Assembly: GCA_964019415.1 (NCBI GenBank)
Contig: OZ025868.1
Coordinates: 9,671,143 to 9,735,142, forward strand
DNA length: 64,000 nt
Source of the DNA: Ianthella basta
Taxonomy: Eukaryota; Porifera; Demospongiae; Verongiida; Ianthellidae
Reading direction: 5' to 3'
Every line of letters begins with the position of its first letter. The first letter of the stretch is position 1. Position numbers and translations under genes: made by a program. Below the pieces are notes generated by a model. The model did no database searches. It saw nothing but the letters and a program-made list of their open reading frames with translations, and was not told the DNA's origin. Positions 1 to 33,800 of this stretch are shown here, piece after piece.

Positions 1-196
1 TAGCTGGTGTTTGGAGACAGACCAGTGGCTGTTAGTGACATGCAGTCAGTGCAGTTGATTAGGTTAGAGCACAATGGGGAATCTTCTGGACACACTCGTG
101 TACTGTACTGCAACCCAGGAGATGGTCTTGTCCATGTGTAGGTAATGCTGCTACAAGTCTTTGTCTGGACCTGCACAGCTGACACACATTGAGGGA
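1..196 (-). CDS. Receptor gene D, FN3-like exon (partial)
   Basis: Read on the minus strand, a TTGCAG acceptor at 197-202 is followed by an open exon running off the left edge of the window. It encodes an FN3-like module with the cysteine signature NCTDC and the strand motif SSITYTWTRPSPGLQYS. It matches the FN3 exon of gene B at 21648-21935 almost residue for residue, with the same acceptor phase, so this is a paralogue in the same family. No matching Ig or signal exon is visible upstream on the minus strand (197 to about 7700); that stretch is filled with retroelements and a pogo relic. The gene may continue outside the window or have lost its 5' exons. Product by homology: ectodomain of a single-pass cell-surface receptor. 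Confidence 0.75.
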
Positions 197-510
197 CTGC
201 AAGGGGAGAATAAGTATAACAGATAGCATAGTGCCAAATTTGTGATGAAGCAAGTTTGATAGGACGGCTTCCCATCATGCAGTATTCACCTCACCAAACC
301 AGTAGAAGAGAGCCAGAACATGCACCATATTGTCGACATACATATCATGCATGTCTGAAAGAGTCTTAGATGTTGCCAGATTAAAATGAATACAATTATC
401 ATATTTACCTTTACTCAACTTTACTTATGTTTTGTCCAAAGTATGCCAACTGTGCCACACATCTTTTAGATTGATGAAGATATTCCACTGCCTTTCACTA
501 TAGGTATGTA

Positions 511-2788: not shown

Positions 2789-5512
2789 TTATTTGTTATA
2801 CTGAATTTTGTATAATATTTTTACACAACTTAAACATACAATATAGCACGACCTATTATCAAATAATAACTGAGTCAAAGTAATTAATAGGCAGTGCACA
2901 GCACCACCTATGCAATGTCTGAATAGAAAGTAATTGTCAATTAAATTACATTGCTCAATGGTGCCCAGCACCGAGGCAGCGTTGCCTCTTTGTAGAGCAA
3001 CTGAGATCTGCTGAATCATGTGGCATCGGGACATCAAATCCCCCGTGACTCGGATCAACTGCCTACCCAGTTCAGTGAAGAATTTACGAGCCCCTCAGCC
3101 AAACACACCTGATGTCTCGACCGCCAGTGGGGCCACATCGTGAGTCCTAGCCAGCTCAGCATACTTCTCGGTCTTCTTCGCCTCGGCTGCAGCCGCCACC
3201 GCTCCTGCCTCTCTCGTTGTCAACACCATATGGGAGACTGCGTAGGTGTCGGGGCAGGTCACATCCCAAACAAGGGTGCGACCTGCTTGCCATGGAGTGA
3301 TGGTAACCCCATCTGAGTGTTTGCCGTCTGACCGGCTGAGGCCTGAGGGCTCCAGCGTAGATGGGAACTGCGCTCTGGCTAGGGATGTCTTGACAATAGT
3401 GTTGATTGCCATGTGCTGCGGAGGACACCCTGCACTGAACTTGCAGCTGAGGCCATGTATGCCCAGCTCATCCACATGGCCTCCACACTGACTGCACACG
3501 TGGGACGGCAAGGGGAACACAGAGACAAAGACCAGCAGCAGTGTGCACCACTTCATCATCAAGGCGGAGCCCCAGGGATGGAACTGGCAGTGCATTCAGC
3601 CATGCACCAGACTCCTTAGCCTGAACTGCCAAAAGTCTAGCTCTCATCCTGGGGTCTGCAGCAGAGTCCGGCACCAGCACACACCACCTCCCACCCCAGT
3701 GAAGCAGCCGCAGAAAGAGTGGGACAAGCCCCACATTGAGGCGACTCAGCAAGGGCTGGCATCCTGCCTGTGGAAGTGGGGCAACCTGGAACCCATGGTC
3801 TTTAGGGCCTTCAGCCGACTAGAAATTGCTGAATTGATAGACTTCAGCTGACCAATGGGGGCCCCAAGGAGGGTGGCATTCTCAGGCTTCACCTGACACA
3901 AGATCACCAGCTGGTTCTTCACAAATGAGCTCTGTCTTTGCATGGTTCAGAAATAGACCTAAGTGGGCAGCCTGGCATTCAATGTACTGTGCGTCTCGTA
4001 ACACCTCTTCCTCGGCACCTCCAATTCTGCCATCATCCAGATAGAAAACCCTGAATTCTGATTTCAGGGGTGCGATGAGAGGGTGGATGGTCAGGCAAAA
4101 GAGGAGGGGTCCCAGAGGGTCTCCTTGCTGAACTCCCCCAGCAGATTGCAGGGTTGTCCCGTGCAGGAAAAGGGTAGATGGTGTGGAGTAACAGGAGAAG
4201 ACATAGTGGAAAAGCTCTGGAATGCTTTCCCTTGCCACTTCCAATATCTTGTCCCTTCTAATGCTATTAAATGCATTCCTAAAGTCGAGCTTCAGGAGGA
4301 CATGGTCCGGGAGGAGGTGGTGGAGATAGAACCTTGCGGAGTGGACTGCTGCTTCTGCTCCCAAGGATGTTCCGAATCCTAGCTGGAGTGGTGCCAGTAG
4401 CGATCCCATGCGCTCCAGGACAGCTCTGCTTGCCACTTTTGCCACCATATGTTGAAGGGTGCAACCAACTGCAATGGGGCGCAATCCACCATCCTTCTTG
4501 TTCAGAGCTGTTAAGGTTGCTTCGAAAAAGAGAGGCCGTACCTGCACAGGTGTGATCCCAGACAGCACAAGGTTGGCGAAAGCCATGAGTGCTGCCAACA
4601 GCTTCTTGCCTCCCGCCCTGGCAGAATTGCTGATGAGATCCTTGAGGTGTTGAGGCAGGAGTCCGTCAGGGCCTCCTGCAGAACCCCTAGGGAATAAAGG
4701 ACAGCGCGGGCCACATCCTGCTCTGTCACTGCTATGGGAGGCTGTGGTTCATTCTCCCGGGGAGGCACTGGGAAATTGGTATCAGGATGCGGGGCTGGGT
4801 GCTTGGCCCGCAAGGCTGCTACGGAGGCGTCATTGTGTTCTGCGACAGCATCCTCTGAGCAAGCCAAGCATACCGCGCCTCTGAAATCCCCCTCCTCCAG
4901 CTTAGTTGACACTCTAGTGGCCAGAGAATGAAGTGGATCAGAGTGTGACTTGCTGGCATGACGATAAGGATGGGCAACACTTGGGTCCGGTGTTACCAGT
5001 GTAGGATCATTCTCTTCAGCTACCTGCTGATTAACCAGTCTAGCAAGGTTCCACCGTCGTCCTCCTCTTCCAAGAACCCGAAAGCACCATTGAGGGAAAT
5101 TCAACAGCCTTGTCCAAGCACTCACGTTGTTGCTCCGGTTCACCTCCTCTAGAACAGTTGACAACTTGCTCGCTGTGAGGTCGCGAGACGCTAGTGGTTG
5201 CCTTCTCAGCAATCTTACTTGCAGCAACAAAGAGACACTTGGCGAGGCTGACGGCGTGATTGGCGTTTGGCTACACAGGGGAGACTGGGGCATCGTGGGG
5301 GCAGGAGACGCGGCAGGATGTGTGCCTTTCGGTTGCTTACCAGATCCAGGGCAATGGCTTACAACTGGCCCATGCACACGGACTGCCCCATCCTTCCTCA
5401 GGGGCATAGAGCGCAGGCACACCGCACACAAACCGTTCGAGGGGGATCTCTCATCTTGCGTGTCCAACGGAAGTGCCAGTCTACAGGAGACTAGAACTAT
5501 ACTATATGGCAA
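2789..5512 (-). mobile_element. Decayed reverse transcriptase element with nuclease-like C-terminus
   Basis: On the minus strand a single protein can be followed through about six frame pieces. The N-terminal part (5512 to about 4600) has a CxxC...H...C zinc-knuckle-like motif (CAVCLRS...HGPVVSHC). The reverse transcriptase core (4598-3882) shows LKLDFRNAFNSIRRD (motif A), QQGDPLGPLLF (motif B) and FYLDDG (YxDD catalytic box). The C-terminal part (3595-3095) has CSQCGGH...HGLSC followed by SDGVTITPW...LVWDVTCPDT...KKTEKYAEL, which looks like the restriction-like endonuclease that follows the RT in R2-type elements. The tail reads ISVALQRGNAASVLGT near 2950. Catalytic boxes are intact but the frame is broken repeatedly, so the copy is dead. 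Membership of a restriction-like-endonuclease non-LTR clade is inference. Confidence 0.75.
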
Positions 5513-5648
5513 CCAGAGAAGTACACTTCAAGAAATCGGGAGTGAGAGGAAGGAAGAGGCTCAAAGAACAATCATCAATGAACATCGGTCAGTCCTTGGT
5601 CAGCCATCTTTTCCCCTTTTTTATACTTATACATTAAAAATAAGCCAA

Positions 5649-10276: not shown

Positions 10277-13200
10277 ATGGGTGGGTTTATATCAGCAGAA
10301 GTTGTCTTTACTTCAGCCATGCCACTGATCTTACTGTGTTTGGCTCAGTCTCCAGAAGCACAGATTAGTAAGTTCTTCCCCTTGCGTCATTGGTTTTAAA
10401 TTAGTGACCTAATGATACCTCCTGCTAGCAATGCCTCACAGTTTTCTTCCTCTTAAGGTTTTATATTCAAAGATAGGTTAGACTGAGATTCGTGCTAGAA
10501 AACCAACTGTTGTATTCTCTATCCATCTTTGTGTATGTCAATGTACATTAGCCTCTTCATTTTAATTCCTTTGTTTGGTGTCAGTTTACTTGCTACTTTA
10601 TTTTCATGCAGTCCCAAGTGATGGCCTTGCTGCAGTTGTGTGTACATGTGCACATCCACATGCAATGTACTGTACATGTCACAAGTTGCTTACTGTGTAC
10701 TGCAGAATAATTGACCACGTACATAGGTATTCCATGGATTTCCTCACGATTGAATAATGTATGTATGGAAGGTCTAAGGATCTTCCACAGAGCCACCATT
10801 ACTGGGTAACTACAGAACTCTCATAGGGTGCCTGTGGAATGTTCCATGGCTAATGTACTCACAAACATTGTCCCGGTCCATACAAAGTTCATCCCACTAT
10901 TTTCTAGATTCTGGACCCTATGCACAGCAACCATTCGTATTGACACACCAGACATACACTTGGCAAGCATGCATGTACATGTGTAGAGCACACATGTGAA
11001 TTCAAGTATTTGCAGCAGAATACACACAAAGCATGTGTACTGTACTCAAGGCACGCTTGTATACACGGTAGCTGGTGCATAGATTTATTGTAGTTTCTTA
11101 ATTAAGCCTGTGCAATTTTCATATTTGTCACAATGTACACTAGAAACAATAAACCATTTCTGCAAAAATAATAAGAATGTAGGGATGGCATAATTAGAAC
11201 AGAAACAAGTAAAGGCTGTTACACGGTGGAGCATTAACCATGGTCCCTACATGCAAGAATGTCGCACCCTATAGTCCTACATCCTTGAATGTAGGAACAA
11301 TAGTTAATACTCCACCGTGTATTTAACAGCCTTTACTCATTTTGTAGTTTTTATGCTATCCCTACATTCTTACTATTTTGTAGATATTTTTATTATTTCT
11401 ATAGTGATATACAAAACAATCTTTCAATTTAATAAAGTGCTGAAATTTACAAATGATTAAGTGCAATTCTTGTTTCAGAGCATATATTTTGCAATACCAA
11501 GCACTTGGACTACAGTGTGCTCTGGATACACACATACATATGACATCGACTGTATATTTCAATTTCATATATTTCTGTAGTGTTCAACAGTGCATTCCCC
11601 CAGGATGTACCATATTGTGAAGGTCAGCAAGTCCCTGCAATGTTCAATGTCACATGTCAATACAATGGCAGCAGTGGCTTTCTTCCAAACTGGTTGGTGA
11701 CTGGACTTAGTACAATGGCAGATCAGATTATCTCCCCCAGTGTGAGTACTGGCCCCTTCATTCCCCAAGGTGGGATTGCCGAGTCCACCCTCACTGTGAA
11801 CAGTCAGGAGGTCATGGAGGGAACATGCTTTCAGTGTCTATTCACAACTGGCTCTGGAACAGTCTCAAGTAGACAAGGCTGTGTGACTGCTGTTGGTGAG
11901 TAAAATGATTGTACAAATTCCTCTCTTGGTCTTAGTCTAAGAGAATATAGTATGAGAAAGCTGTTTATTTGACCAACATTCTATATGCTCTTGGTAAATT
12001 TAAGGCATTTTGGTATCATGCACATGTGTGCCCTTTGTAGGGTAAGTGAAATTAGTTATACAATTGCTTGGTTTCAATTTGCTTTCTAAATTGATGCATT
12101 GGCATTATACATTGCCCATGCAGTTTTGCTTCTACAGTACCCACATTTTGTTATTGCATAGTAAGGCTGATAACATAAAGTAATATGAATTGGTATTAGC
12201 TCAAGTTTTATCTACATGATCACTGATTTAGGAGGGATGATGCAGTAAGTGCCTGAGTGGAAGAAGAACACATGTTCTACCTACACCTCCAAAACCTGCA
12301 ACCTTGCAAGAGCTATCCCAATGTAGTCTCACATCTAGCTCCTATACTAACTGTAAGCAGCTCACAGTTAGTAATCGTAGGAGTTGAATGTGAGACTAAT
12401 CCCATGTTAGCACCACACACACACACAACACACACACAACACACACACACAGCACACACACACACACACTGCACACATCATGTCACACACTACTACTTAA
12501 CCACCACCATAAGATTATCATATGCATGCATACACAATTCACATTCAAAGCAGCCTATTTTGTGTTGTGCACACTGGCAGGAAACTTACAGCTGCACATG
12601 TAGTGCCATTTAATTTAATGTCAACAGTTTATATAGTACCTAAACATCAACAATATTGTAAACATTTTCCCGCACGCTAGACATGTATGTCAAAGTGGTC
12701 TGTACTCATTGTCATGTACATTCTCTCTGTGTCTCTGTAGGTCCTCCACTGGCTCCTAATAATGTTATCATCAATGGTTCTACAATTTCCTGGTCTTCAT
12801 TAGCTCCAGGCTTGAGTCACAGGATAAGTGTCTGCTTTGACGGTGCAGCAGAGTGTCCCTTTCTGGCCAACTGCACCGACTGTAATGCCTATGTCATTAC
12901 TAGAATTTCTGAGAGTTGCCACTACAGAATTACAGTATGCAGTTCTAATGTGGTGAATGGAGTTCCCTGTACAAGTGAAGCATGTAGCTCTATCACAACA
13001 AGTATGTGACATTGTACGGCAGCATTGTACAAACTAATGAATTAATTAGATAAAAAATAACCAATTGATTTACGACCGAGTGATATTCAAATTCATCAGG
13101 CCTTGGCTAAGGAATGTTTTCTAAAGAAATGTTTGCTATACACATAGCTACAGTTTGTGTATCTCTATTAGGGAGCTTTACCAAGCATGCAAGACATCCT

Positions 13201-15783
13201 TTACTCTTTCCACTTGCAAGCACTTCTGAATGTCCACATCCTTTCTCCTGTGTGGCTAGCTTAACCTCATGCCACAATGATGTGCACTGCCATCATCATG
13301 CTTCTGTCATCTGTATATTTCACTGGAATTAGATAGTGTGTTTGAGTAATTAAAGCGAAAGACTTTATACATATCATTTTAGTCCTGACTATAGCTATTC
13401 TGCTACTTGATAATACTGCCATGAGTGCGTCTAAAGCTTATAGCCTGAAACACAAAGTTACAATAGATGTACATACATCACCTCTTAGTATCATATCCCA
13501 CATAGTAACTAGTGAATTTAATGATAATGAAAGTGATCAATTTTGTGCAATGCTCATATGTGTATTTGCACAGTTATTTCTTCAGTATCAATCTTGTTTC
13601 AGATACTAAAAGATGCTGAAGTCTGCATGCTGTGATCTATATAATATTATGCCTTATTACATTCTATTATTTTCTGTATGCAGAGCTGAATACAACCCTC
13701 CCCACTTCACCTGCTTCAAGTAAGTTCTGTTGATCACTTTCAAACTCAACACTTGTAGTAACATATATAGAGTCTTGCATAGAGATGGTACTGTTGGGCA
13801 ACTACTTCAATACTGTTGATACTTGTGCTATAAGGTAGCTGATGTCAGTTAATATGGATCTAGTGTTGTAGCAAGTCTGAATGAAGCCAGTGTTGTTTGC
13901 AGCCCCCAATGGTATTAGACAGCAATTGTATTGACTGGTGTATATGCTGCCATTTTGTTATGCTGGTATCAATGCCTTTTCTGCCAGCCATTCCTAAATT
14001 CCTTCAAATTCTAAAGCAATTTTTATACACTAGTTCTTATTATTCTTCCCATAGAATTCTTGCGCACTCTTAGTGCACGACACAGGGCACCTATTGACCC
14101 CATTTTCTAAGACTACTTACAAGCATTCACGAAGGACTAGGATCCGAGCGCTGGTGGCAATCTGAAAAGTACAGTGCTGGAGCGGGTAGGAAAATTGTCT
14201 TCCTCGTGTATTAAGATACCCCAATGCTACCATTTTGTTGCGCTGGTATACCGTTACCGTAACATGGCAGCCCGTACATCTACAGTGGCACAACTGTGCT
14301 TGATGTTCTGCAAAATCTTTATCTACTTTAAGGAAAGGGTATTAGTCAACACAAGTACTAATCTGATGTAGCCATAGTCCTTCGGATATGCAAAAACTGT
14401 ACAAACTAGTGTATAAAAATTCCTTTAGAATTAGAAGGGATTTAGGAATGGCCAGCATAAAAAGCATAGAAACAAGCAACAGTACTCAACACCATGATAA
14501 ACTACATTTCCGTGAAGTTCGCTCTGCATTCCTAATTTCCTTGTGGATGCATAGACCTAAATGTCAAGCTAGTTAGTCCCATGTATAGAAAATTAATATG
14601 CCATACTGAGTCTTTGTGCATAGTGGGTTGGTATACTTACAGTAAGCTTTGTAACTTCAATGGAGCTTCTTAAAATTCCTCTGTAATCATTTGGTAAGTA
14701 AAGCAGGACTACATAGTAAAAAAGGTTAGAAGGAGCCGGTGTCATAGGACCACAATATACCGTGACTATTAACTGATTCTTGAGCCAGACATGACTGTTG
14801 ATGACACAGCAAGTGCATGTAGTTTTGAACTGGAGGTCTTTGTCAGCTGCCTACATAAGCAGTTGACAAAGACCTCTTGGGTTAAAACCATTCGGATTAT
14901 CCTGCATTTGATCTATCAATAACACTTGTGTCCTGCTCAAGAATCTGTTACTAGTGGGTATATCAATGCAACTATGAGGCTCTACAACGTTGTTTGACCA
15001 CAATAAAGCTGTGTGGCACCATCAAGCCTCTAAGAATATTAATTTTTTATCTCCTCCTGTATACATTGTAGCTTTGTTCATGAATTCTGGATACACTCTA
15101 ATCAGCAGAAGTACATAACTAGAGTATTACAATACAACTGAAGGCTTTATTGATGTTATTGATTGGCCATGTTACTTACTCTGTGCATTACCACAGTTGT
15201 GTTATGTGTAGTCATCTGTATGTACCCTCTACAGTATATCTTCCATTGCAGTTAATGTAGGTATATTTGTTGGAACTACAAGTGCCTTGGCACTGCTGCT
15301 AGAGCTATCCATCATATGTACTGATGTCATCACCTCCTCTTTTCCACTGCAGCACTACCTTCTCCAGGAGTGGCTTCAGATACAGGTATATGTTTGCATT
15401 ATAGTGAATGAGCAGATATACCGCAATACTACTGAAGCCTTTGATTGATTATTTAATAGCTACGTATGTTACGTATTTTCTGAAAGGCACATTACCACTA
15501 TTGTGTTATGTGGACAACATCTGTATGTACTCTTTACAGTATATCTTTCATTGCAGTTGATGTAGGTATATTTGCTGGAACTACAAGTGCCTTGGCACTG
15601 CTGCTAGTGCTCTCCGTCATCACTACTGGTGTCATCACCTTCCTCTGCACCAGGAGGTGCTACAGCAAGAAGAGCACTCCTCCACCTCCTAAAGAGAAGA
15701 GTGTGTACTATGAAACTGTTCAGTCAGACAGTGTACAGATGCAGCCCAGCCCAGCATACCAGTCTGTGGAGCAGGTGAAGTGA
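10277..15783 (+). CDS. Receptor gene A: Ig-like/FN3-like single-pass receptor with ITIM-like tail
   Basis: Six coding exons, all joined by phase-1 GT-AG introns: 10277-10367 (signal peptide), 11581-11895 (Ig-like), 12741-13001 (FN3-like), 13684-13719 and 15353-15385 (linkers), 15557-15783 (membrane helix, tail, TGA). The sum is 963 nt, 320 residues, fully in frame. The Ig-like exon has a paired-cysteine pattern ending TCFQC...GCV. The FN3 exon has the extra cysteine motif NCTDC. The helix is about residues 250-276, followed by TRRC. The tail has STPPPPKEK (possible SH3 ligand), VYYETV with Tyr297 (matches V-x-Y-x-x-V, the ITIM consensus) and AYQSV with Tyr313; the two YxxV boxes are 12 residues apart. 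The ATG lies 6 nt after a splice acceptor, so a 5' non-coding exon is expected. Likely role: cell-surface recognition or adhesion receptor signalling through tyrosine phosphorylation. The exon structure is well supported; the function is inference. Confidence 0.8.
11143..11399. repeat. Palindromic MITE, family R3, in intron 2 of gene A
   Basis: The element is an inverted repeat along its whole length: the left arm contains ATGTAGGGATGGCATAA and GCATTAACCATGG, and the right arm carries their complements, ending TTTTTATTATTTC. Both ends abut TA, which fits a TA target duplication. Related copies lie at 51628-52372, 52460-52715 and, partial, at 61370-61500. It is non-coding and non-autonomous. 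Confidence 0.75.
12416..12480. repeat. CA-rich microsatellite in intron 3 region of gene A
   Basis: Imperfect (CA)n tract with interruptions, just upstream of the FN3 exon. No other feature is seen between the Ig exon and the FN3 exon. Confidence 0.9.
14833..14876. repeat. Short hairpin in intron 4 of gene A
   Basis: GAGGTCTTTGTCA is separated by about 18 nt from TGACAAAGACCTC, giving a 13-bp perfect stem. It may be the end of a small mobile element. The rest of this intron (13720-15240) shows nothing else recognisable. Confidence 0.6.
15252..15340 (+). pseudogene. Relic duplicate of the membrane-helix exon in gene A
   Basis: After a TTCCATTGCAG acceptor the sequence repeats the start of the true membrane exon at 15557 (VNVGIFVGTTSALALLLEL versus VDVGIFAGTTSALALLLVL), then decays and runs into the acceptor of the linker exon at 15353. 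The intron just upstream is also copied (CTGTATGTACCCTCTACAG). It is a partial tandem exon duplication. It is not needed for the gene A frame and is probably skipped. Confidence 0.7.
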
Positions 15784-16616: not shown

Positions 16617-16838
16617 AGAGATAGATAGATAGATAGATAGCTATATTATTTTACAACAGGAATGCTGCATCGACTACGGTGGGTTTTCATGCAGGCCCTG
16701 AGAACAAGGTACAGACAGACACACAATACAACACGAGATCACAGTAATAATAAATTGAGTAAATCAGTACAATTGTATTTCTTAATAGTGAATTATAAGC
16801 TCATTAGTCTATCTATATCTATCTATCTATCTATCTAG
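16617..16838. repeat. Paired (TAGA)n and (TATC)n microsatellites
   Basis: A TAGA tract at about 16617-16640 and a complementary TATC tract at about 16806-16838 flank about 165 nt. The second tract abuts the end of the kinase relic. The tracts could pair to form a long hairpin. Confidence 0.85.
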
Positions 16839-17395
16839 CGTTTCCGTACGTTGAAATCTGTAGGCATCAGTGGCGTCATTGTCGTCTCTCCCTAGCTTAG
16901 TCGCAGTGCCGAATTTGCCCAGTTTGGCCTTTGGACAGAGAGTGAGGTAGACGAAAGAGGCATTCAGGTCCCTGAAAATGGTAGCCGGTTTCCGCGAATG
17001 AAGGTAGCGAACGGCCAAAACCACGTCTCGCAGAATACATGCCTTTGTGGTCAAGGGCAATGCAGGTTTAGGGGTGGTCTTGAGGTACTGATCAAGGTTG
17101 TGCTGTAGCAGTTCCGTCACAATGACGGGATATCCGCCCTTGATGGGGAAGTGGAGGCCATAGAACTGCAGCACGTTCGGATGCTTGAGCTCGCTCCAGA
17201 GAGTGCACTCGTAGAGGAAGCGATCGGAAAGGTATTCCGTGACGTCTTGCGTTCGTAGCCTCTTAATGGCGCAGGGCGCATCCGCCCACGTCCCTTATCA
17301 CAGTGCCGAACAGCCCCACGCTAATGTGCCTCTCGGTGATCTCAACACCTTCAATCGCCAAGTGCTGCAGGGCGTCGCCGTGGCCATGGGTGCAG
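16827..17395 (-). pseudogene. Protein kinase domain relic
   Basis: Read on the minus strand, a kinase fold can be followed: ITERHISVGLFGTVIRDVGG (glycine loop), a frameshift, then CAIKRLRTQ (the VAIK lysine), YECTLWSELKHPNVLQFYGL (alpha-C and beta-4 region), VIVTELLQHNLDQYL (hinge), RDVVLAVRYLHSR, then IFRDLNASFVYL where HRDLxxxN is expected, and KAKLGKFG where DFG is expected. The catalytic His (FRD for HRD), the metal-binding Asn (changed to Phe) and the DFG Asp (changed to Lys) are lost, and the reading frame breaks between glycine loop and lysine. The relic ends at a microsatellite. It resembles tyrosine-kinase or TKL members but is inactive. It sits between the converging 3' ends of genes A and B. 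Confidence 0.75.
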
Positions 17396-18239: not shown

Positions 18240-18815
18240 CTTAAACCATAGCTTACTTGCCAAAACAGGTACACTAACCGATAGCAGTAGCATTATTGCT
18301 ATGCATTGCATACAGACAGAAAGCATGCATAAAGGAGTGCATGCAATAACAATGAAACTAGGAAATATTTTGCCTCAATCCTGCTATAGATCTGCACATA
18401 CTAGAATAATTGGTGAAACTGTAAGTATTGCTCACATCGTGCACCAAACTGTCAAGCTTACAAATTATTTACAAAAGTAAACCAGAGTTCTAGAACTCTG
18501 CTCCGGTAAGTAACCCTAGTGGCCAATTACTGTCAACTGTCACTTAGCCTGCTCCACAGACTGGTATGCTGGGCTGGGCTGCATCTGTACACTGTCTGAC
18601 TGAACAGTTTCATAGTACACACTCTTCTCATTAGGAGGTGGAGGAGTGCTCTGCTTGTTGTAGCACCTCCTGGTGCAGAGGAAGGTGATGACACCAGTGG
18701 CAATGACAGAGAGCACTAGCAGCAGTGCCAAGGCACTTGTAGTTCCAGCAAATATACCTACATCAACTGCAATGAAAGATATACTGTAGAGGGTACATAC
18801 AGATGACTACACATC
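18240..18815 (-). repeat. Inverted duplicate: last exon and 3' end of gene B
   Basis: Complement of 15500-16075, see there. The coding part differs from gene A by only a few residues (for example YNKQSTPPPPNEK versus YSKKSTPPPPKEK). Confidence 0.75.
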
Positions 18816-21800
18816 TATACATATAATTCAGTTTGTTTGTTAGTTTGTTTGTTCGCTTTTGGCACAAATACTACAGAACAGAACGCCACCAAGCTCTCAG
18901 GGATTATAAAGTGGAGCTCCAGATGTGTCTTTCACGGGTTGAAATTGCCCGTCTTGCAGTTCCTGAAGAGATATCCTTCACTTTCCGGTTTTTCATTCGC
19001 CGCTGACAGCCACTGTATTAATAATTGCTTATTGACTTCTGGCTATCGGGCGGTTTGATTCACTGTCTTCCAACGATTAAATTTAAACTCAGCCGTCGTT
19101 ATAGCAGCTACCCTCTGTTGCTAACTAGCTGTCTTGCGACTTGCCGAAGCAGAAGCCCACCGAAGGCGGGCGCCCTGCTAGTGCATTATAACACAGTAGA
19201 GATATTGTGTCTTGGTGCATGTAACGTGGCCAATAAACAACGTTGATCAAAAACTAAAGCTGTACGTATTGTAATTATGTCAAGCTGTATTTATTTGTGC
19301 TCATTCACTATATATAATGAGACATACCAGTGTCTGAAGTCACTCCTGGGGATGGTAGTGCTGCAGTAGAAATGGGTGTAAATAGGTAAAGCTGTATGCG
19401 CATGTACGCATTTGAGATTGAGCAGACGTGTAGTTGAAACGAGGTTGAAAGCACACAGTGTCATATAAATTCCTTTATGCTACTATCATTAGGTACAGAT
19501 ACAAACAAAGTTAGCAAATTTAGCAAACATCGCAATAATCACCAACGTTTGTAGGCATAACTATACTTATACACAGAACTGCAAACACATTATACAGTCT
19601 TTATTGCAGTTGAAGTAACATTTTAATGCATGGAGCAGTTTTCACGAGTTAAAGCACAAATGTTCCTGATATAGAATCCAACTGTAACTACTGTATGGAA
19701 CAGCCCAACCCATTCATACCTCAAAGATGCTAATGAGATAGCAGCCAGGGAGAGAGCAGTCTGGCATTACCAGATCCCGCCCCTTACTTCATTTCATTGC
19801 ATAACCCCTACTGGGGTATGTTTTAGAGAAATAGAGGAGAGAAAGTGATCTGGATTATGCAAGAGTATATTGGAGATCTGAAGGTGGTTGCCATACATGC
19901 ATTGATCATTGCTGCAAGGAATGCTCTGTACACTGGCCCTTCCAGTGTTGGTTGTGCTTGTGAGCAGACAAATCCAAATAGCTACTGCAAGGAAGCATTG
20001 ACTGAAGATGGCAATATATGGTTTCCACAATTATGTGCAGAGTCTAAAGGAGGTGTTCTGTGAAAATATTGAAGGAGCGCCCACAATAACTAGACAGTTG
20101 GTCAAGTATTGGAAGTTCTCCAGTTGCAAAAAAAGACTTTCTCTATCACTGACTATTCTCTATCAGTAACTACTCTGAATCGAGTTAGATTGAGTTTGAG
20201 TTAGTTGAAGAAGAAATTGGACATTTCCAGTCTAACACTTCTTATACCAATTACAAGTAGAAAAGCACATGACAGCACACCTGAAAATGTTCTGCTGCAA
20301 GTTAGCACACAAAGTAGTTAGTAACGGTGGCTCAAGATTGACTGTTACATATATCACCACTGCCATGTACCACACAGTGCAATTGAAACACCTGCCATTC
20401 CTTCACATCAGTAAAATAACTGAAAGGTACCACTAGTCCAAGTTGTAGAGGGTGAGGCCCACATATGGACGCAGGTGCAGTTATATGCACTAATTGATGG
20501 TAGAAAGTACCACTAACATAAGATTGGATTGCTTATTTAAGCAGGGGAAGTCTTTAGCCGATGGCTACTATTCTAGGCACCCAGTAACAGACATAATACA
20601 ACATGCGGAAACAAGGACATGATGAGTCACAGTTTAATTGAATATGTAGTCATGCAACAAAACGAATGTCTATAAATTGAAAAAGAGAGAGACAGAAAAG
20701 AATGATCATGACTAACATGCAGATAATTATGTGAAATTCATGCAGACTTAGTCAGGGTGTGAAAAGGTTATGCACTGCTCTTGAGAAGTTAATTATTGTG
20801 GTGGAGTCTCTGATTACTGATGGGAGTGAACACCAGATTGATGCTCAAACGTAAGAGAAGGCGGGTTGGCCAAATGATGAGCGGACTGATGGTAGATTGG
20901 TGAGGGTCCTGGTACGTGTATTATGATCATGGGTGGGGCAATGAAACACTGATGATAAGTAAGAAGGAGCTGATGAATTGTGGCACTTCAAGGTGAGCTG
21001 TGCTGCATGGATCTTCCTGCGGACTTCAAGGGAGGTGAGGCCAAGGTCTGACCAGAGTTCAGTGGAGGATGACAGTTGGGGACAGTGAAGGGCTAGTCTG
21101 CATGCAAAATTAAATAGAAATTGGAGACGTGATGAATCTTTATGGGTACAGCTATACCAGACAACGTCGCAGTAGTCAAGATGTAGAAGGATGCAGGACT
21201 TTAAAAAAGTGAGCTGGGAAGGAACCAGGAGAGACGTCGATCTGAGAAGATTCACATTCCTTAACACCTTCTTAATGACATGGTTGATGTGGTCGGTTCA
21301 AGTTAGGGTGTCGTTGATGACTACTCCTAGCAGCTTGAAGCATCAAACTTGTTCAATGCCACAGTCATTCAATGACAGCTGGAGGGAAGGTGGAACAACA
21401 CTGGCTCTTGGCGAACGTATCAGCATGCACTTGGTCTTGTTGGTGTTCATTTTCAGCCCATTGTTTATCCAAGATATGAAGTATTCCATCCAAGATGTAA
21501 AGGATTAAGATCATCATGAGAACAAGTTGGAGTACACATGAGGTGCACTTGAAGGAACTACAATATTATAAGTACAGTATACATGGGCTATAACCTGGCT
21601 ATTACAAATTATATAATAATGTACATTGGAGCATAATTAAAACTCACTGATTGACTGAGTTGAAGCTGTAGCTACATTGTCCAAACATCCCTGACTGACA
21701 CATCCTCCACCAGATGAACTGACTACTGTGATGGTGTAGTTGGTGTTTGGGGACAGACCAGTGGCTGTTAGTGACATGCAGTCAGTGCAGTTGATTAGGT

Positions 21801-24800
21801 TAGAGCACAAAGGGGAATCTTCTGGACACACTCGTGTACTGTACTGCAACCCAGGAGATGGTCTTGTCCATGTGTAGGTAATGCTGCTACAAGTCCTTGC
21901 TTGGACCAATACAGCGGACACACATCGAGGGAGGCCTACAAAGGGGAGAACGTGCACACATGTACAACATAGCATAGTGGAGGATCAACTATTCGAGATT
22001 CATAGAATTTTAGCAACAATTTGCTTGTCCAAGACTGAACTGCATGAGTAGTCCCAGGCGATAGTGATAATACTACTATCATGACAACAAAAAGTAACTA
22101 CTTGCAATAGTGAATAGTAATACAATAGTATCAAGAAATAGTGTATAATACTGTACATGCAGTACATACCATCATGCAACACCGCATACAACCACACACA
22201 GTGAAAGCAAAAGCACTGGTGCCAGTAATTGTGCTAGTTCATGGTAGAAGAAGCCCCTCAATACAATTATAGTTATCTGTTCAGTAGGCAGTGTTTGTTC
22301 CTAAGTGGTATTGCCACTGAAAACATTGGTATCCTTGGCAGTGCCTGGTCTCGAGTTTGGACATGCCATATCAGTTGAGTTTGCACCTGATGTCTCAAGC
22401 ACCAGGCCACCAGTCTCCAATGTGCCATATAAACTGTTTTATTGAGATAGGCTAACCGATGGCTGAATAGTAGTCGCCCACTATTGTATTTGAATAGTGA
22501 GCCTACTATCACAATAGTGATAGTATTGCAACTATTGCCCAGGCCTAGAACTGAGTCACAAAAAATGTCACATCATCAGCCATACATACGCATACTCTGA
22601 CAAAATGTTCAAAGACTTGTGGGGAGTGTGAATTCATTATCAAAAACTCCTCGCATGATGACCACAAAGCTGTGCTCTATAAAATTTTGGCATTGCATTG
22701 CAGTCACCCAAATGTACCATGATCACTAGTATGGGGAAGAGTATGCATTGTCCTGGTCGATAAACATCAATAAGCAATAACATTAACACATGCAGTCAAG
22801 GTGCATTGAAAATAGTTAGGCTATGGTAGATCCACTGTGAAACAATGTCAGTTGATCGAAAGGTGTGAGTCTTGCTTTCACTCACGTGTGACATTCACAC
22901 AGGTTCGCAGCACTCATTTGAAGCCCACTGTTACTGTTTGGCACAAACAAAAGGTTGCAGATATGTGGGCGTTTAGGTAACCACAAGACTAAAACGTCAG
23001 CGAGCAAACTAAGCATTGTGGTAGGCAAGCAAATCACAATAATTTACAAACAATATAGAAGCAAAACATGATAAAAAGTCAGATGGTCACAGTTGCAAGT
23101 CAAATTTATATCCAGTAGCCTTTCCTTCACTTCGAAGGACTTCTGGAATCACCTTCCTCAGATGTCCGATGTATTTTCTGCATTTCTCCACAGAGACTGA
23201 TTTGATTGATTGATTGATTAATTATCATTTGTCAACAGCTTCATGGCACCTGTTCAACGCTGTTGGAAAGTGTCTAACTACAGGAGGAGTGCCACGCAGT
23301 GGAGCAGTAGTTGAGGTAGGGGAGAACTAATGATAGGTACAGCATTTTCCTTGTCTTCACTGGAAGGTAGCTGCTGGCTTTGCAGATGCTGGCCAGTGCA
23401 GCAAAGGCCTTTCTGTGGATGCTGGCCACATGTAGCTTCCAGTTTAGGTCTTGGTAACCCCAAGGTAATTGACCAAGCAAGACTTGGGAATTGCTGTACC
23501 ATTCAATGACACATTGGTGCCGCTGCTCTTCCGCTGCCCTTCATTCCATCAATCAGTTCTTGCTTGCTTGATTTCAATGCCACTCTGCATGGATACGTCA
23601 CCATCCCTACATCTGGCAATATCGTAGTCAGGCGTCGTGTGACCCCTCCTCACGGAAGGGTCAGGTTAAGTCTAATACATTGACTTGTCCACGCGGAATG
23701 CAATTATGTGCTGTGGAATGTAATTATTGCGCAACATTATGCCTCGCTTGTGGCTGCAAGTATGTGCGACGCGACGTCGACGGCTCGCGACACTTACCTG
23801 ATCTTTCATAATAGCTGTCAAAGGAGTGACAGCAAAGACTATCGATGTCCCTTTGACCGGCAACACCAGGCCGAACACTGTCGGCGGGCACGCGTAGCAC
23901 AGGCTCTTGCTGAAGCCGGTTGGCAAAACAGTGAAAACATCCCTCACAGAAACGATGCCAGACACGACCTGAAGTTGCTCTGGCTTCATGGTAGAATAAC
24001 CAAGGCGTTGGATGGCTTCCGTCGCAGTGTATAACACTCTCTGGTCCATGCTCTGGTCTGCTGCCATTGGCGAACACGGAAGCGATAAATATTTCACACC
24101 TTTCTTGCAATCTGATTGGGCACGCAACCATTGTGGCGTGCTGCACAAGTCAATGTATTAGACTTAACCTGACCCTTCCACGAGGAGGGGTCACGCAATG
24201 CCTGACTAGCAACATTGGTGGTTGGCCTGTCACAGGCTGCAACTAGATTATCCGCATGCCCCTACATGAAACTGCTACCTAGGCCCTGTACATGCATGGC
24301 AAAAGTGCTTCTCCCAATTTTGTAATCGCTCATTCCACGTCTCCAAAAGTTGTATCATAGGCAGTAATAAGTCCAAAGTGATGGATAAGTATAATATGGT
24401 ACTGAAAGATACTGGCTGTGGCTGAGATGTAATTCATGATACACAGTGCATAGGTGTATGTATAGTGTTATGGAAGGCTGAAAGAAATACACAGTAGTGT
24501 AACAATGGAGCAGTCAGGCTGAATAACATCATGAGGTTTAGCTGTTGTATGATTCGAAGCTGGAAAGGTAGGTCATCTCTTGTCAGCACTGACAGTTATC
24601 AATAGTCTTATAGAGCTGCAAGCCGTTTGCCAAATAGCATAACTGCTGACTGAGGTGAATAGCCACTTGTGATGGCGAACCTTCCATTTGGAGATAATAC
24701 AGAGTCTCTTGTACTTGTGCAGGGATGCCGATAATTGATGATTCATTGAAACTGGCTAAGTGTGTCTAATGATCCTTTGAACAGAAGTGGACTAGCTTTG

Positions 24801-27800
24801 GTTTGCAATGGGAGTTTAGCTTGTCCTTCAGCATTACTATTGATGGTATAGTTGTTATTGAATTGGATGCTGCAGTAGGCCAATAGAGGATGGGTCCCTG
24901 GCAGCGTTGGAGACCTGTAATGACATGGATGAATAGTAGGCTTGCATAAAGAGGATAACACAGCTGGCGAAACAGCCAATTGCAAGAAATTACCTGGTGG
25001 TGGTGGGCACTGAAGAGTAGTAGTAGGGTTTCAGTAGTAGGTGCATCAAAATGTTGCCAGATGTAAGGATGGTGATGCATCCATGCAGAGTGGCATTGAA
25101 ATCTGACGCCACAGAATGTTCACCTGGATTGTTGAACACTGGATGGTACCCCTCCTTTGAATGGTACCATGGGTTAGGCATGGGATGGTTCCCCTCCTTG
25201 TTCCTGCAGTTTTTCTACCAGCCAGTTTTTCCATGCAGGGATGTGGTCTTCAGAGGCGCTTGGCACCATCCCTACATCTCTCCTTGTTTTTGTGGAAAAC
25301 CTTTTTACTTCCCTTGTTTCTTCGCTTTTTTATGGAGTGCAAGCTGCACTGTAGCAAATTGAGTCCGAAGGCTTGGCCATCTGGCTAATGCAAAACAAGC
25401 CAGTGTTGCAAGGAAGCCTTGCACTGAAAGCAAGGGCCCACAGAGGCAGCAGGTTCCAGCCACCCTCCTCCCCCTTCTAGTGCTTCTGATAGCATAAAGA
25501 ATTAAGTTAAATGGGTTCGGCTAAAAATATTAGATCATAGGAAACGTACAAAGTCAGAAATACCTAATCAATCACTGATGTAAAACACAAATGTACCGAC
25601 AATGTGCAAGCATGCAGATCTACACCATAGTATCACATGCCTGAGTGAGCCAAGCATCTCAGCCTCTGGTTCAGGGCAGTTACATGCAGTGTGCTTCCTC
25701 CTGCTACTCCACAGGAAAGTGGCTAATTTACTACAGATGACACTACCTCAAAGTGGCTTGGATGGTGCATTATGTACAGTGACTTGGCAGAGCAATCAAG
25801 CTGCAAAGTTGGTTCCAATTGGTTTGGGGCAAACAACAACCAGCAATCTGAACTGGTGTCAAATGAATAGATGTTAGTCTGCAGCAAGTGTGCCAAAGAA
25901 AGGATTTCAATTTCTGACCCCCATGCACCATCCATTGCATTGGTGTGTCATGAAAGTAACTGTCAATGCTGATCTGAGTGACATGTTTACCAAGCAGTAA
26001 GTGGCCAATGGCTTGCATGTGCTTCAGAATAGCAACCCGGACAGCCAAATGATGATCCTGGGACCAAGTAATGATCATTGCAAAGGATCGGAATAGGCAG
26101 TTACCATCACCCATAATACGCTGCACTGTCTGAAAGTTTGACCGTGTCAAACCAGTATTAGGACCACCACAAGCAAAAGGATTTGGTTCCTGGTATTCAA
26201 GCCCTAACTTGTGACATGTCTGACGTTGCCACTCAGCATCAACTGGATTGAAACGAAAGTCATTTTGTGCAAATGGTTGTACATGTCTTCTTCTCCACTG
26301 TACAACAGTATGTGGCACACTTTGGGACACTGGGGCTGAGGTGCTATTGCTTGTTGATGGCAACAGACCAGTCTGACTATATTTTTGATTGCCCTTGCAT
26401 TGCTTTGCGGGGTTAGGGCTTGTACACACACCAGTGAGCATGCGCTTTCGCTTTGAATGCATGCTTTGTTGACTGGGTACAGCATAGGGTGGCAAATCAG
26501 GTCTATACAACTTGCGTAGACGATTGATCTCCTGCAGTGATTGTGTTGACACCATAATAGACTTTGGATCAAAGGCAGTTAGATGCAGTCCTTCAAGTGT
26601 TCTCACTCGGGATAGAGCAACATAAGCCATACCAGGGCTGAAGATCTCATCTGAGAGGTCGACCATTGCACAATTCAATGAAATTCCCTGACATTTGTGA
26701 ATGGTGATGGCATGTGCAAGAATGAGGGGGAACTGCTCCCTAGACACATAGAGACGCTTCATCACGAGGAACCTGCTCTTAACTTTCTTCACACTGACTG
26801 CATCTTTCATGTGATCAAACTTAACTTCGATGGTATGGGCCTTGATTTCAACGACCGTACCAATTGCTCCATTGACTAGCCCACTAGCAGTGTCAATGTT
26901 CCTCCTCAACATGACACGTGCTCTAACAGCAATACAGAGAATAGCTTCCAAGCCAGCTGTTAAGTTGCAGTCCTTGTTTAATCTGTCTAGTGCACTGGCA
27001 GCTTTTTTTGTCCATTTGTACTTGCCGACAGTTTCATCAACTACATCTGTGCAGGGAAGTTCAGAGGGCTCGGTTGGCAATTTGCTCAGCATGTCATTGT
27101 TGAAATCAGCACATGCTTGTTTAGTTGGAAACAGACACACAGGAGACTGTGCAGCTTCTTGCAGCTCTTGGTACTTGGCAGACACTGTTGTACTGATGAC
27201 TCTGCTTGTCAAAGTGTCTATTGTTCAGCACAGCTTGCCTGCATTTCCTGCACATCATTCATTGCTGCTTTGGCCTCTCCTACAACATTTGGTTCATCTA
27301 AAATGTTCTCTGTCTGCACTGTTAGCTTGCCTAGCTTCATTGATTTCTTGTACCTTTGTCTGTGCTTGCAGCATCTGTTGCAATCTTTCATGGTGCTTGA
27401 GCATGCTTGAACCATTTTTGTAATGCCGTGCAAAAGATTGCTCAGCAGTTTCATTTGGTTTCAGCAAATCACTTTCATTTCTGAGGAGCAGGGGATTGTA
27501 GTCACTAACACGAGTCTCTTCACTGGTGCGTGCCAGGCAGTAAATCTTGGCCTTTGACTTCAGGCAGTCTTCAACATTGTTCAAAACAGCTGTGTCAGTA
27601 GCTTCACGGGGAAAGCCAAACGTGCACTTTGTTATGAATATGCTGCCATACTTTTTGGTTCTCTTGCAGTACCTGCTGCACTTGTGCATCATGGTACTGT
27701 GTGACCAATCTATGCAACTCAGGCTTTGATTTCTCTTCTGGAATGTGACAGCAAATTCTTTCATTTAGCATTTTTGAACCACCCCTTCTGGGCTTTCACC

Positions 27801-30800
27801 AATGACTGGTGCGCCTTCTATTCAAACAACTGCATGGTAATGTGGTGCTCCACGACCTTGGTACTCTTTCTTGAAGAAATAATGAGTAACATGACCCAGA
27901 ACATTTCCTTTCAAAATGACAGTCTTAAAGAAGGCATGAAACTTCGAGAAAACTTCCTTGAAACTGAAATGGGATCTTCACAGCACAATTTGCCAATGGG
28001 ATAGCTGTCTGGAACATCATTCACTTTTCATAGATAACTGTCAATATCTGCTGATTCATATTCTGCACAAATGAATGTCAGGAATAGTGTGGGTGGGCCA
28101 AACTCGCGAACCATGCAACGCAGTTCACTGGACCTCAGAAACGCCAGCCTTTGCATCAAGAATAGTCCCTATTTCATTGTTGCCAGGCAGTTTACACTCT
28201 TCAGTGCACCTCCACTTCTTTAGTTGCATGCTCTTATTGTTACGGTCACCAATTTCTGCAGCTATACAGCACCATCCATTTGCATCCACTGGTACAGGTC
28301 CAGTGGACATGCATGTGGTGTATGCTGTGTCATAAAAGTATGGTTCAGAAGAAGCAGTGTGATAGCTTTCTCCCAGATTAGTCACTGACAGGTCCAAGGT
28401 GTTCACAGCTCAGATACACCTTAACAATAGTCCTGCTGTCACTCTTCTGTTTTTCCAAATGCATTCAAGAAGTCGTTGCACTGCAATTCTGCAAACAGAC
28501 ATATTCAGCTTGGCTTGGGACATGCTTTTTGCAAAGCTTTCACGAGCCTGTTTACAGCTAAGTCGCAATCGAGGCAGAGCAAATAGCATTTGTTGCAGAT
28601 TCTTTGCAACTTGTGCTAGGTGTGCCTTTGGTTCTTTCAGATTATACTTTCCTCTACGATAGTGGTTTATGGATCCCCTTCACTGTTCATAGTATGCTTT
28701 CACTGCAGCTCTAACTACATCTGGCTGACTTTGAAACCTCGTCCATGAAGCAGCCTTTTTGAGTTCTGGATTGGCTGCATAGTTAGCCTGAGATGCAGCT
28801 CTTTTTGGCTGTGGATTGGCTGCCTAGTTAGCCTGAGATGCAGCTCTTTTCGGCTGCGGATTGGCTGCATAGTTAGCCTGAGATGCAGCTCTTTTTGGCT
28901 GCGGATTGGCTGCATAGTTAGCCTGAGATGCAGCTCTTTTCGGCTGCGGATTGGCTGCATAGTTAGCCTGTGATGCAGCTCTCTTCGGCTGCGGATTGGC
29001 TGCATAGTTAGCCTGAGATGCAGCTCTTTTTGGCTGCGGATTGGCTGCATAATTAGCCTGAGATGCAGCTCTTTTTGGCTGCGGATTGGCTGCATAGTTA
29101 GCCTGAGATGCAGCTCTTTTCAGCTGTGGATTGGCTGCATACTTTGCCTGAGAGGCAGCTCTTTTTGGTTTGGGATTTGTTGTGTACATTATCCGTGATG
29201 CAGCCTTTTGCGGCTCAGGATTTCTGCGTACTTTGCATTCATTGCAGCCCGTTTAGGCTCTGGATGAGCAGCATAGTTTGCGTGTGTAGCAGCTCTCTTA
29301 CGCTGTGGCGAGGCCGCATAGTCAGCTCTAGAAGCGTCTTTCTTGTGTTGCGGTTCTTCAGCATATTGCAGTCTCTTCTTAGGTAAGATCTCATCCTTGA
29401 TACTGCTGTTTCTAAGCCTGCTGTAGGCTGCCTGCTCTTCCTCTGCTTAGTTGGCCCAAGGTTATATTCAACATCTCCTCAAAGCATCAGCAATAGACTT
29501 AGAGCTCTGGCCAAAGCAAGTTCATGATTACAACTGCGCCGTCTTTGTAGTAACAGCTGTAAGTACAAAGAAACCAATGCCGTCTCTGGCGAACATATGC
29601 ACGGCCATAACATCTGCCTGTAAATGCCATTGGAATGATGGCATGCTTTAGCCATGATGCACAGTGCAGCCAAGAAATGTCTGTGTCATGACAAGGTGAT
29701 GACCCAATTGCAGAGGTAACTCTATTGCCTGCGAAAGAGTCACAGAGGCCAATCCCCCAATCACAGAGTGAGCTGCTATTGTACCATTGATACAGCAAAC
29801 TTGTATTGCCCCAATCACATTGGAAGCCACTAGTTGCATGTCTACCAGCACAGGGCAAGCTATGCTGCACATTGGCACTGCTATCTGAGAATGAAGTGCC
29901 CCACCTACCCAGTGGCTCATCCCAACAGGGCAAACAATACATGTCCTTGTGCATTGCATTCTTGCCACAGGGTGAAATGTGGCACCCACAAAGCAAGTCA
30001 CACAATGTACTTTCTTTGCCAAAGGGCAGTGCATGCCCCCAGCCATAGCCACTCCAGCCACAGAGTGTGTCAACCCAGCCACAGGGCAAGCCACTCCAGC
30101 CACAGAGTGTGTCACCCCAGCCACAGGGCACGCCACTCCAGCCACAGAGTGTGTCACCCCAGCCACAGGACAAGCCACTCCAGCCACAGAGTGAGTCACC
30201 CCAGCCACAGGGTGATGTGCCCCAGCCACAGGGCAAGCCACTCCAGCCACAGAGTGTGTCACCCCAGCCACAGGGTGATGTGCCCCAGCCACAGGGCAAG
30301 CCACTCCAGCCACAGAGTGAGTCAACCCAGCCACAGGGTGATGTGCCCCAGCCACAGGGCAAGCCTCTCCAGCTACAGAGGGCCTCACCCCAGCCACAGG
30401 GTGGATAGTGAATAAATAAAGTGAGAACAAAAAGCAGTGCAACATCGAAACGGCGCCAAGCAAAATGTGGACTGTCCATATCAGCAGTACAACTCCACCG
30501 GGTGTCCAAGAGGACAAAAGCAAATGCCCAATGACTAGGAGTGATGATACTAGACACAGCTGAAATGAAGAATGCTTGAATAAAAGGGAAAATGGCAAAT
30601 GCAAAAATGAAACAGGGTTCGCAGGCGACTGAGCGCAAAAGCACACTTACCTCCACTGCAACAGCTGCCCTGTAAAAGCAACTGCTTTCGTGCCAACACA
30701 AAAGCGAAGGGTTCCACTCTTATGAGGGGAAGAGTTCCACTCTTTCGACACAGAACGTACAGAAGAGTTCCACTCTTTAAGCGCAATCCAAGGTGAATAG

Positions 30801-33800
30801 TTCCACCGTTTAAGTGCAGAATTCCAGGAGACGCAGGCCGAAATGGTGAGAAACAATGGCTGCCTTTGTTGCCATGGTGTGCCTGTTTAGACCGGTTCCA
30901 ACCGGTTGCCAATTACATCATGGGAAAATGGCTGACGGTACGTAGCTCTGGACACCGTAAACAGGAGAATCGCCACATGGCATATTACACCGTAGCACTC
31001 CCTAACATACAAAAGGCACCATCCAGGTAGAGGGTCAGAAGAACTGCAGTTGAATTGTTGTCTTACTCCTTGTCGTTCGTGAGTTACAGCTGACATAGAA
31101 GAAGAAAAAGAAGAAGAAGATGAAACACGGAAAATGACAACGACCCTTTCTTCGCGACAGCGCGCTTGCGCTTGGAAGTAAGGTTACCTCTGTATACTGT
31201 ACACCCTCCCTTCCTTGGAGGCGGTTTCTTGTGTTGGTTCTCACAATTATTCAGGATTAGCGTGACTTTCCGTTTGTATTACAGCATACAAACAACCCCC
31301 ACCATTCCTACATGGACAGCACTAATGTGCTGTCTGATTAGGATGAGGACAGGCAGGCAGACACCCAGATATCAGTGGTACACTAGACCCAAATTCTCAT
31401 TATCATGCTGGGCAAAGAGAAGCTAGGTATAGCAACTAATGTCAATATCACACTTTAGCTCGACCAATCAAATAACTGGCAACCAAAATCAAACCACCAA
31501 TTATCTCAACTTGCTGCTCTGTGGGCAGTCGAGGTTCTCCTGTACTTCTGAGCCTTTGCTGCAGTCCAAGGAGGTTCCATAACCTGCGCAGGGCGCCTCT
31601 ACTTTGGGTGAAAGGTGTGGATAGCCACTAAATTCCTGTTGTTAACACATTCCAGAACAAAAGTCTTATGATGTGTCCTTACCAGTGACATCACTAATGC
31701 ACACAGACGGGCCAACTCCCAATCCTCAGGGCTGATGTGCTAGGTAAGGGGTGAGATCCAGAGATGTGGCACAGTATATCCTAGGTAAGAGGTGTGGTTC
31801 AGGTCACATAGAAGCATTTGTTACAGCAAAATCCTATCAGGTACAGGTGGTCTGGAGCTAACCCTAACCCTAAGGCAAGAAGCCAGACCCAAAGAGTATG
31901 AGACACCCCAAATCCAGGACAGTACATGACATCAAGCTTTCTCAATACTATGCACACAAGCGTCACAAGTGCCATCGCATGGGCAGGGTCTGGGTATGAA
32001 ACCACATTCAAATATTAGAGAGGTTTAGCATAGCGTAAATGTTACAATTTACATTGCACAATCACAGAATACGTTAAAAGGCTTCCATATATTAAGATAG
32101 AACCAAACTTTATCGTTGCTCTTATGACATAAGCTTCACCATCTTTTCAGTGTCTGTGAGCCTCCTAGGCACTTTTACAGTGTCTGTGCACATGCCCCTA
32201 CTCAGCCAGCGATCAGTACACAGTATAGTTCCGCATGCTTTGCCAATAAGCAAGTATCCAGTTCTGTCAGTGCAAGTGTGCCTTCAACCATGCCTCCTGC
32301 TTCTTCTCCAGAGGTTTCTCTAGCTTATACTGCTGGCGCTCTTCTTACAAGAATACATGCAGCTTCACCTATATGTTTTAGCATTGCTGACGACATCCTC
32401 CTGCTTCGCGAGTTAGCCGGACATGAACAGAACTGGCTGCATAGTGTCACCTACTGTAGAAGTTGCTATCGATCTAGCAGCTTCTTGTACTCGATTGCGA
32501 AGGGACAACGTCTCATTCTTGCTCAATATCTTCCTGCTTTGGCAAGTAATCGGTCATTATGTTAGCCCTGTTGCCGCCATCTTATTACTACTACAGCTAT
32601 TACCAAATTGCCCTATGCCAAATGCGCTGAAGACATCGAAATAACGGTACAGTATCTACTGTATCCATAGGATACCGCAATGTTATTACACTATGCTAAA
32701 ACTCTCCATCAGTCACCATATCACTAGTTATTAAAGCTGCGACAAATGCTGAGTTAACTATTCACCCAGCGACTTCCATCTTCGGGCACTGCATCACGGC
32801 TGTCCCAACACCTGACTTATTCTTGTAGGCGAATAGTTGGTGGGCAATATGTAGCAGATTATTCAACAACTGAATGCAGGGCGTTTTGGCCTGAAGGCCT
32901 TCGTCAGCTGCGTACAAAACTGAGAATGTATGGTGTGCGACTGGTTTATATAGCTATGGGTAACTGTGTGTGACCAATCAAATTCTAGGATTATGTGTAC
33001 ATGTGTTTAGCCAATCAGAAACATAGTTATGTGTACAGGGGTGTGGCCAATGAAACAGAAAATAGTGGGGCTAGAGGGGGGGGGGGGGGGGCTAAATTCC
33101 TTGCAAATGTTGCTGACTTTGGCCCACTGGTTGGACTGGGGCAGGTCTTCCTCCTGCTGCATGGTACACTGTGACAGCATCACCTGACTCTTATCATATC
33201 ATATCATAAGGTAATACACAAACTTGCTAACATAACCCTGAGCATTCTTTCAAGGTAATGGGTTTTGCTTAACTCACGTGTGACATTCACACAGGCTGTA
33301 GTAGAGATGGGATTGTTGCCACTGAGATCAGCACACTGAAAAAAGTTTCGTTCATAACCTCTGCATTAGTGGGGTCATTCACAATGAGTGCTGCCTCAGT
33401 GTTACTGGAAGATGAGTAGGTATAAATGTCCTGATTACTTATTGAAGTGACGGTACGTCTGTCGACATCACGTATTCCTGACACCTCAAAGATCAGAGTA
33501 GCTGGAGTCATACTTGCTGTACACATGACAGTGAAGGCAGTTGGGAGGCTCTCTGTCTCACATACTGTGATATCACGAGACACCTCAATGGCTGTGTAGA
33601 GATATGAGAGAACATAAATTGCACAATTACAGTCTGAGGCAAAATTCTTGACAGAGATTCCTGTAATGCACACAATGTTTGTCAATGGAGGAAGAAACAT
33701 TATTGGTTCTATATTATAAAATGTTCATCATTCATAGCTCAGGCTAGCATAAGACTTGGCTAAATCAGATTACAGCACATAGTTAAAAGCTGACCAAGAG

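Follow-up and report, generated by a model that had tools for sequence, protein, structure and literature searches.

The locus at positions 10277-15783 (+) of the 64-kb stretch of DNA analyzed here (the window, C1:9671143-9735142 of the host genome) raises the question of whether a sponge possesses a clustered family of immune-type receptors with ITIM-like tails. A splice model resolved gene A at this locus into six exons, which join to 963 nt encoding 320 amino acids and a stop codon; all exon borders were GT-AG and every intron was in phase 1. On the forward strand, exon 1 (10277-10367) contains the start codon and a hydrophobic leader, judged by eye to be a signal peptide. It is followed by a divergent Ig-like exon with TCFQC (exon 2, 11581-11895), an FN3 exon with NCTDC (exon 3, 12741-13001), two short stalk exons (exon 4, 13684-13719, and exon 5, 15353-15385) and exon 6 (15557-15783, stop included), which encodes a single membrane span, a PPPP stretch and a cytoplasmic tail with two tyrosine motifs. 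Across the 64-kb window, no Rfam matches or tRNAs were found at the thresholds used. A 15-residue match to viral contigs was taken as chance.

A duplicate of the gene, A2, was found 22 kb away at about C1:9659081-9665595. All six exons and their splice sites were present, the leader exon was kept, and exons 4 and 5 were identical to those of gene A. Because A2 keeps every exon and splice site, the gene A model is not a product of chance, and the complete six-exon, 320-residue protein proposed by the sequence-only reading was borne out. The two copies are mosaics whose identity differs by feature: 85.7% in the Ig exon, 86.9% in intron 2, 92.7% in the FN3 exon, and 93.6-100% from intron 3 to past the stop codon. 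The dN/dS between them was 0.37 for the Ig exon, indicating that this exon is under coding constraint, and 0.84 for the FN3 exon, and the tail exons differed by three replacement and zero silent changes. The uniformity of the 3' half is more suggestive of recent exchange or conversion than of protein-level selection alone. The stretch 3' of gene A is also part of the duplication. In the interval separating gene A from gene B, it includes a kinase fragment (16827-17294, -) that is closest by sequence to WNK-type kinases (E 6e-10) and has FRDLN and KFG at its catalytic sites.

The nature of the ectodomain was addressed by profile and structure searches of the product. The FN3 domain is firm, as both the fold and the sequence profile identified it. 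In the case of the Ig exon, no Pfam match was obtained with the exon alone, nor with the whole 320-residue product up to E 5, and a profile of nine close members found no Ig chain. A profile of 14 members, canonical relatives included, found CD200 (E 2.4e-4) and also TCR alpha, and cysteines C25 and C82, corresponding to the B-F cysteine pair of Ig domains, were invariant in 14/14 family members. Structure prediction of the Ig exon returned a poor model (pLDDT 49). The earlier description as an Ig-like/FN3-like single-pass protein therefore stands for the single span and for FN3, the latter by both routes, and is likely for Ig by family profile and cysteines.

The reading that we prefer, to which we give slightly less than even confidence, is that gene A represents a clustered family of sponge single-pass receptors that combine a variable ectodomain with a near-constant inhibitory-type recognition tail. 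The Ig exons of the family were 23-80% identical to that of gene A. Amino-acid differences between A and A2 were concentrated at Ig-exon residues 28-66 (15/39 compared to 6/65 elsewhere in the exon), where silent differences were high too. Diversifying selection was not seen: when each of three subregions was compared with three copies, the dN/dS of the Ig exon was 0.05-0.59, below 1 in each comparison made. This finding counts against the preferred reading. It is what might be expected of ordinary adhesion receptors, that is, a lineage-specific family signaling for junctions or growth through SHP-2 or adaptors recruited to the tail, with no self/non-self recognition, an alternative that we consider rather unlikely. 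It is opposed by the many clustered copies, in which a uniform tail accompanies Ig exons that have diverged strongly, as this arrangement is commoner in recognition receptors.

The cytoplasmic tail of gene A contains VYYETV (residues 295-300, Y297; 15703-15720, +) and SPAYQSV (residues 310-316, Y313; 15748-15768, +), so that YETV is followed after 12 residues by YQSV. In the genome, 30 tail loci were collected, and one decayed copy (L035) was dropped before motifs were counted in the remaining 29. The strict ITIM consensus [SIVL]xYxx[IVL] was found in 21/29 tails and was absent from 8/29, and [N/S]P[A/G]Y was kept in 29/29. The ITIM consensus arose in 9.7% of 20,000 shuffled tails, and the motif alone is thus weak proof; it is the conservation of both motifs that places the tail above chance. 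In the tails on C1, dN/dS was 0.50 in the cytoplasmic part compared to 0.90 in the membrane span, counted over 18 of the 19 tails (L027, which has a stop, was left out) with pooled pairs that are not independent. Judged on its motif and its conservation, the gene A tail is ITIM-like. The earlier reading of VYYETV as fitting the ITIM consensus thus held; the second tyrosine lies in SPAY and is not a strict ITIM.

Two alternatives arise from these motifs. An activating, ITAM-like role, in which both YxxV sites together would bind a Syk-type tandem SH2 kinase, agrees with the presence of two Yxx[VIL] motifs, which in gene A are separated by 12 residues, a distance at the upper limit for ITAMs. 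The classical ITAM, however, is Yxx[LI] x6-8 Yxx[LI], to which gene A does not conform: the spacing exceeds that of classical ITAMs, and V, rather than L or I, predominates at the +3 position. We regard this role as very improbable. The second alternative is that these are uptake receptors, in which the N/S-P-A-Y core would recruit PTB/clathrin adaptors, allowing a filter-feeding animal to take up or sort apoptotic cells or microbes. The [N/S]P[A/G]Y site is more constant than the ITIM, and it reads NPAY in 7/29 tails. Since the second tyrosine of gene A lies in SPAY and NPAY occurs in those seven tails, a PTB-type or uptake role is equally likely at that site. However, the site was SPAY in all but one of the C1 tails examined, SPAY departs from the NPxY consensus, and gene A itself does not match N-P-x-Y. 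As an account of the family as a whole, uptake seems to us quite unlikely.

The preferred reading is one of a family. At least three paralogues had been claimed for the 64 kb, which was correct for exons, gene A being the only gene complete inside the window. Upstream of exon 6, near 15257-15334 (+), is a decayed copy of its membrane-span part (profile match E 5.7e-6). Gene B has a tail exon at 18543-18767 (-), 93% identical to that of gene A as protein, and an FN3 exon at 21661-21936 (-). A frame-disrupted Ig exon at 33282-33631 (-) lies more than 11 kb from the gene B FN3 exon, and its membership in gene B is uncertain; it closely resembles the intact Ig exon of a further copy at 61606-61944 (+), the remainder of which, if any, is past the right window edge. 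The FN3 exon of copy B2, at positions 3-200 (-), is cut by the window edge, and its tail is at C1:9668344.

Searching the host genome (209 Mb in 96 contigs) for further copies revealed a clustered multigene family. The tail exon had at least 51 genome matches at E <= 1. On C1, there were at least 19 tail exons between 9.47 and 11.37 Mb, a span of 1.9 Mb, with 61-100% identity to that of gene A (91-96% for the nearby tails), and besides these 19 there were two decayed membrane-span copies. For 11/19 C1 tails, the 12 kb upstream (a limit of our choosing) contained Ig and FN3 exons in the same orientation as the tail; doubt attaches to two of these, the copy at C1:9498744, which has in-frame stops, and that at C1:11259464, which has the Ig/FN3 order reversed and stops in the FN3 match. 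A possible tail-less partner was looked for at the FN3 exon at C1:9808701, and by eye the next 6 kb downstream showed no membrane-span exon. The group at 10.6-11.4 Mb on C1 has a more canonical Ig type, with 19 near-full matches (46-100% identity, C1 10.64-11.38 Mb, one with stops) as well as shorter fragments. Large arrays of distant Ig exons, approximately 29-37% identical to the canonical members, were observed at C1:13.8-14.3 and 15.3-15.4 Mb. The cluster had been attributed to a sponge or a cnidarian; the cluster was confirmed, and the genome contained 6 nuclear-receptor and 32 homeodomain exon matches, counts which we take to fit a sponge better than a cnidarian.

The nearby tails of this family are more alike than its Ig exons. 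When the ten tails of the 10.6-11.4 Mb group were compared with gene A, the cytoplasmic 138 nt were 84.6-97.1% identical and the membrane span 65.2-75.6%, as raw percentages without a random control for the flanks, and the resemblance stopped abruptly past the stop codon. Four-fold silent sites were then counted between the C1 groups (8 x 10 loci), with the cytoplasmic part beginning at GVITF: 5.4% differed in the cytoplasmic part (77/1432) compared to 34.2% in the membrane span (188/550), in pooled comparisons that are not independent. Fisher tests on single pairs were weak (three of about 0.06 and one of 0.56), and pairs with other chromosomes showed no difference. An RNA structure behind the conserved silent sites was not supported (z +0.43 for the gene A 138 nt). 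As silent sites in the tail have hardly changed and those in the membrane spans have, the tail behaves as a homogenized cassette, most simply explained by gene conversion or by repeated copying of that segment. We consider this homogenized tail, common to different genes, the more interesting finding.

The same tail was also found behind several kinds of ectodomain, which lay beyond the 64-kb view of the sequence-only reading. For the tail at C1:11193982, the nearest upstream exons on the same strand were two cadherin-like exons, one of them seen as two overlapping pieces (Pfam Cadherin E 2e-4; 5.8e-5 and 0.0034, all under the curated cut-off). This cadherin-like gene lends some weight to the adhesion alternative. 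C15 carries eight distant tails, of which two contain a stop; three others lie on C4 and a single one on C16. The two C4 tails and the C15 tail examined in this respect were preceded by IgGFc_binding domains (E 1.7e-57, 6.3e-14 and 3.6e-40), and the second site was NPAY in all five C4, C15 and C16 tails examined. These tails linked to IgGFc-binding domains are older relatives, and ectodomains of this kind are a point in favor of uptake. Two C19 tails follow FN3 exons. Position and strand suggest that the cadherin-like, IgGFc_binding and C19 FN3 exons splice to their adjoining tails. A broader form of the preferred reading, which we advance tentatively as plausible rather than probable, is that sponge recognition is modular: one phosphotyrosine cassette (ITIM-like plus S/NPxY) would be carried on Ig-FN3, cadherin and older-form IgGFc-binding ectodomains, be kept uniform over approximately 1.9 Mb by gene conversion, and deliver one SHP-type output. 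Elsewhere, C1 aside, a long tail with repeated HYDRV/NYDRL/HYDSL-type tyrosine motifs was observed at C8:7201000-7202400, where FN3 matches are abundant, and may represent another family of receptors, one whose tails carry multiple tyrosines.

A possible partner for the tail is encoded in the same genome. The exon order SH2-SH2-PTP occurred twice at C16:693.8-713.4 kb. One SH2 exon was closest to SHP-2 (E 3.8e-32, compared to 2.6e-23 for SHP-1), and the PTP exon matched receptor phosphatases best (3.8e-33, compared to 1.1e-23 for SHP-2), for which reason these exons are termed SHP-2-like. SHP-2 also serves growth-factor and adhesion receptors, and a partner of this type would suit the adhesion alternative too. 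Two SH2-kinase genes related to Src/HCK and other tyrosine kinases were seen at the cluster edge (C1:9634300-9635900 and C1:9613900-9615500). They read HRE for HRD and SGF for DFG and are thus predicted pseudokinases, and no significance is claimed for their location because there were 70 SH2 exon matches genome-wide.

Under the preferred reading of a recognition family, the ectodomain would vary through a divergent or more canonical Ig domain joined to FN3. The Ig domain would bind a ligand on a neighboring cell or microbe and the receptors would cluster, upon which a Src-type kinase would phosphorylate Y297 in VYYETV. The SH2 domains of the SHP-2-like phosphatase could then dock at Y297 and damp the response of the cell, and the second site, S/N-P-A-Y, could take a second SH2 or else an adaptor of the PTB or endocytic kind. 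Similarity among the tails would be maintained through gene conversion or repeated copying, so that many specificities would feed one signal. Besides the dN/dS values, this reading has against it the poor Ig model, the lack of Ig matches for the gene A exon alone and for the nine close members, the ITIM frequency in shuffled tails, the eight tails that have no ITIM, a second site that is not an ITIM, and a PTP exon closer to receptor phosphatases than to SHP-2. An immune role of the family is put forward here as a hypothesis.

This arrangement resembles that of several known receptors. KIR, LILR, Siglec and PD-1 have an Ig ectodomain, a single span, an ITIM plus a second tyrosine site and SHP partners, and occur as clustered paralogues; gene A shares the likely Ig domain, the one span, the ITIM with a second tyrosine, the clustering and, in the form of the SHP-2-like exons, a possible SHP-type partner. 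Unlike these vertebrate inhibitory proteins, gene A has a membrane-proximal FN3 domain, an NPxY-like second site and a divergent Ig cysteine pattern, and no close sequence relation was seen beyond the Ig fold profile.

Among invertebrates, excerpts of recent papers describe the Hydractinia Alr family, with 41 members reported and ITIM-type tail motifs (PMC11999971, PMC12065747). Compared by description only, each family is a cluster of IgSF receptors with ITIM-type tail motifs, from a lineage that branched early among animals; the present one differs in phylum, and in having a near-identical tail across groups and behind non-Ig ectodomains. The Botryllus fester co-receptors FcoR, as excerpted, are likewise clustered type I proteins that combine Ig domains with a tail of the ITIM or hemITAM type (PMC12065747), with a variable Ig, a sushi and two C2-type Ig domains in 520-610 amino acids (PMC12065747), whereas gene A has one Ig and one FN3 domain in 320. 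Earlier sponge candidates named in such excerpts are a Geodia Ig-bearing receptor tyrosine kinase, adhesion molecules and aggregation factors (PMC12018476, PMC11999971). They too are sponge surface proteins tied to recognition or adhesion, but by description the short tail of gene A, which has no kinase domain, is unlike the Geodia kinase.

The excerpted text of a 2025 review describes allorecognition receptors as convergent in ITIM/ITAM from cnidarians through to mammals, notes a lack of conservation among the allorecognition candidates of sponges, cnidarians and ascidians, and places ITIM-type allorecognition receptors in cnidarians and tunicates, sponges not being credited there (PMC12065747). 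In open-access literature searches, no paper describing this sponge receptor family appeared in the titles and abstract beginnings among the matches listed, and within that text the family does look undescribed, as had been suggested. Varied outer domains on a near-identical inhibitory-type tail suggest that such receptor wiring may reach back to sponges. If the modular reading is true, ITIM-SHP control either predates the split between sponges and other animals or arose independently in sponges. An ITIM-tailed IgSF cluster together with SHP-2-like exons would extend ITIM logic towards the animal base, and a homogenized tail behind different ectodomains would exemplify the swapping of recognition parts on a fixed signal. 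The cluster would also give work on sponge histocompatibility a candidate locus that can be mapped.

The window contains other elements as well. Frames resembling reverse transcriptases, and one resembling a helicase with an OTU-like end (Helitron-like), were recognized by eye among the open reading frames at 3882-5527 (-), 48982-49900 (-), 58099-59355 (+) and 25770-27224 (-). Open frames of short tandem amino-acid repeats were present at 28715-29252 (-) and 29499-30719 (-).
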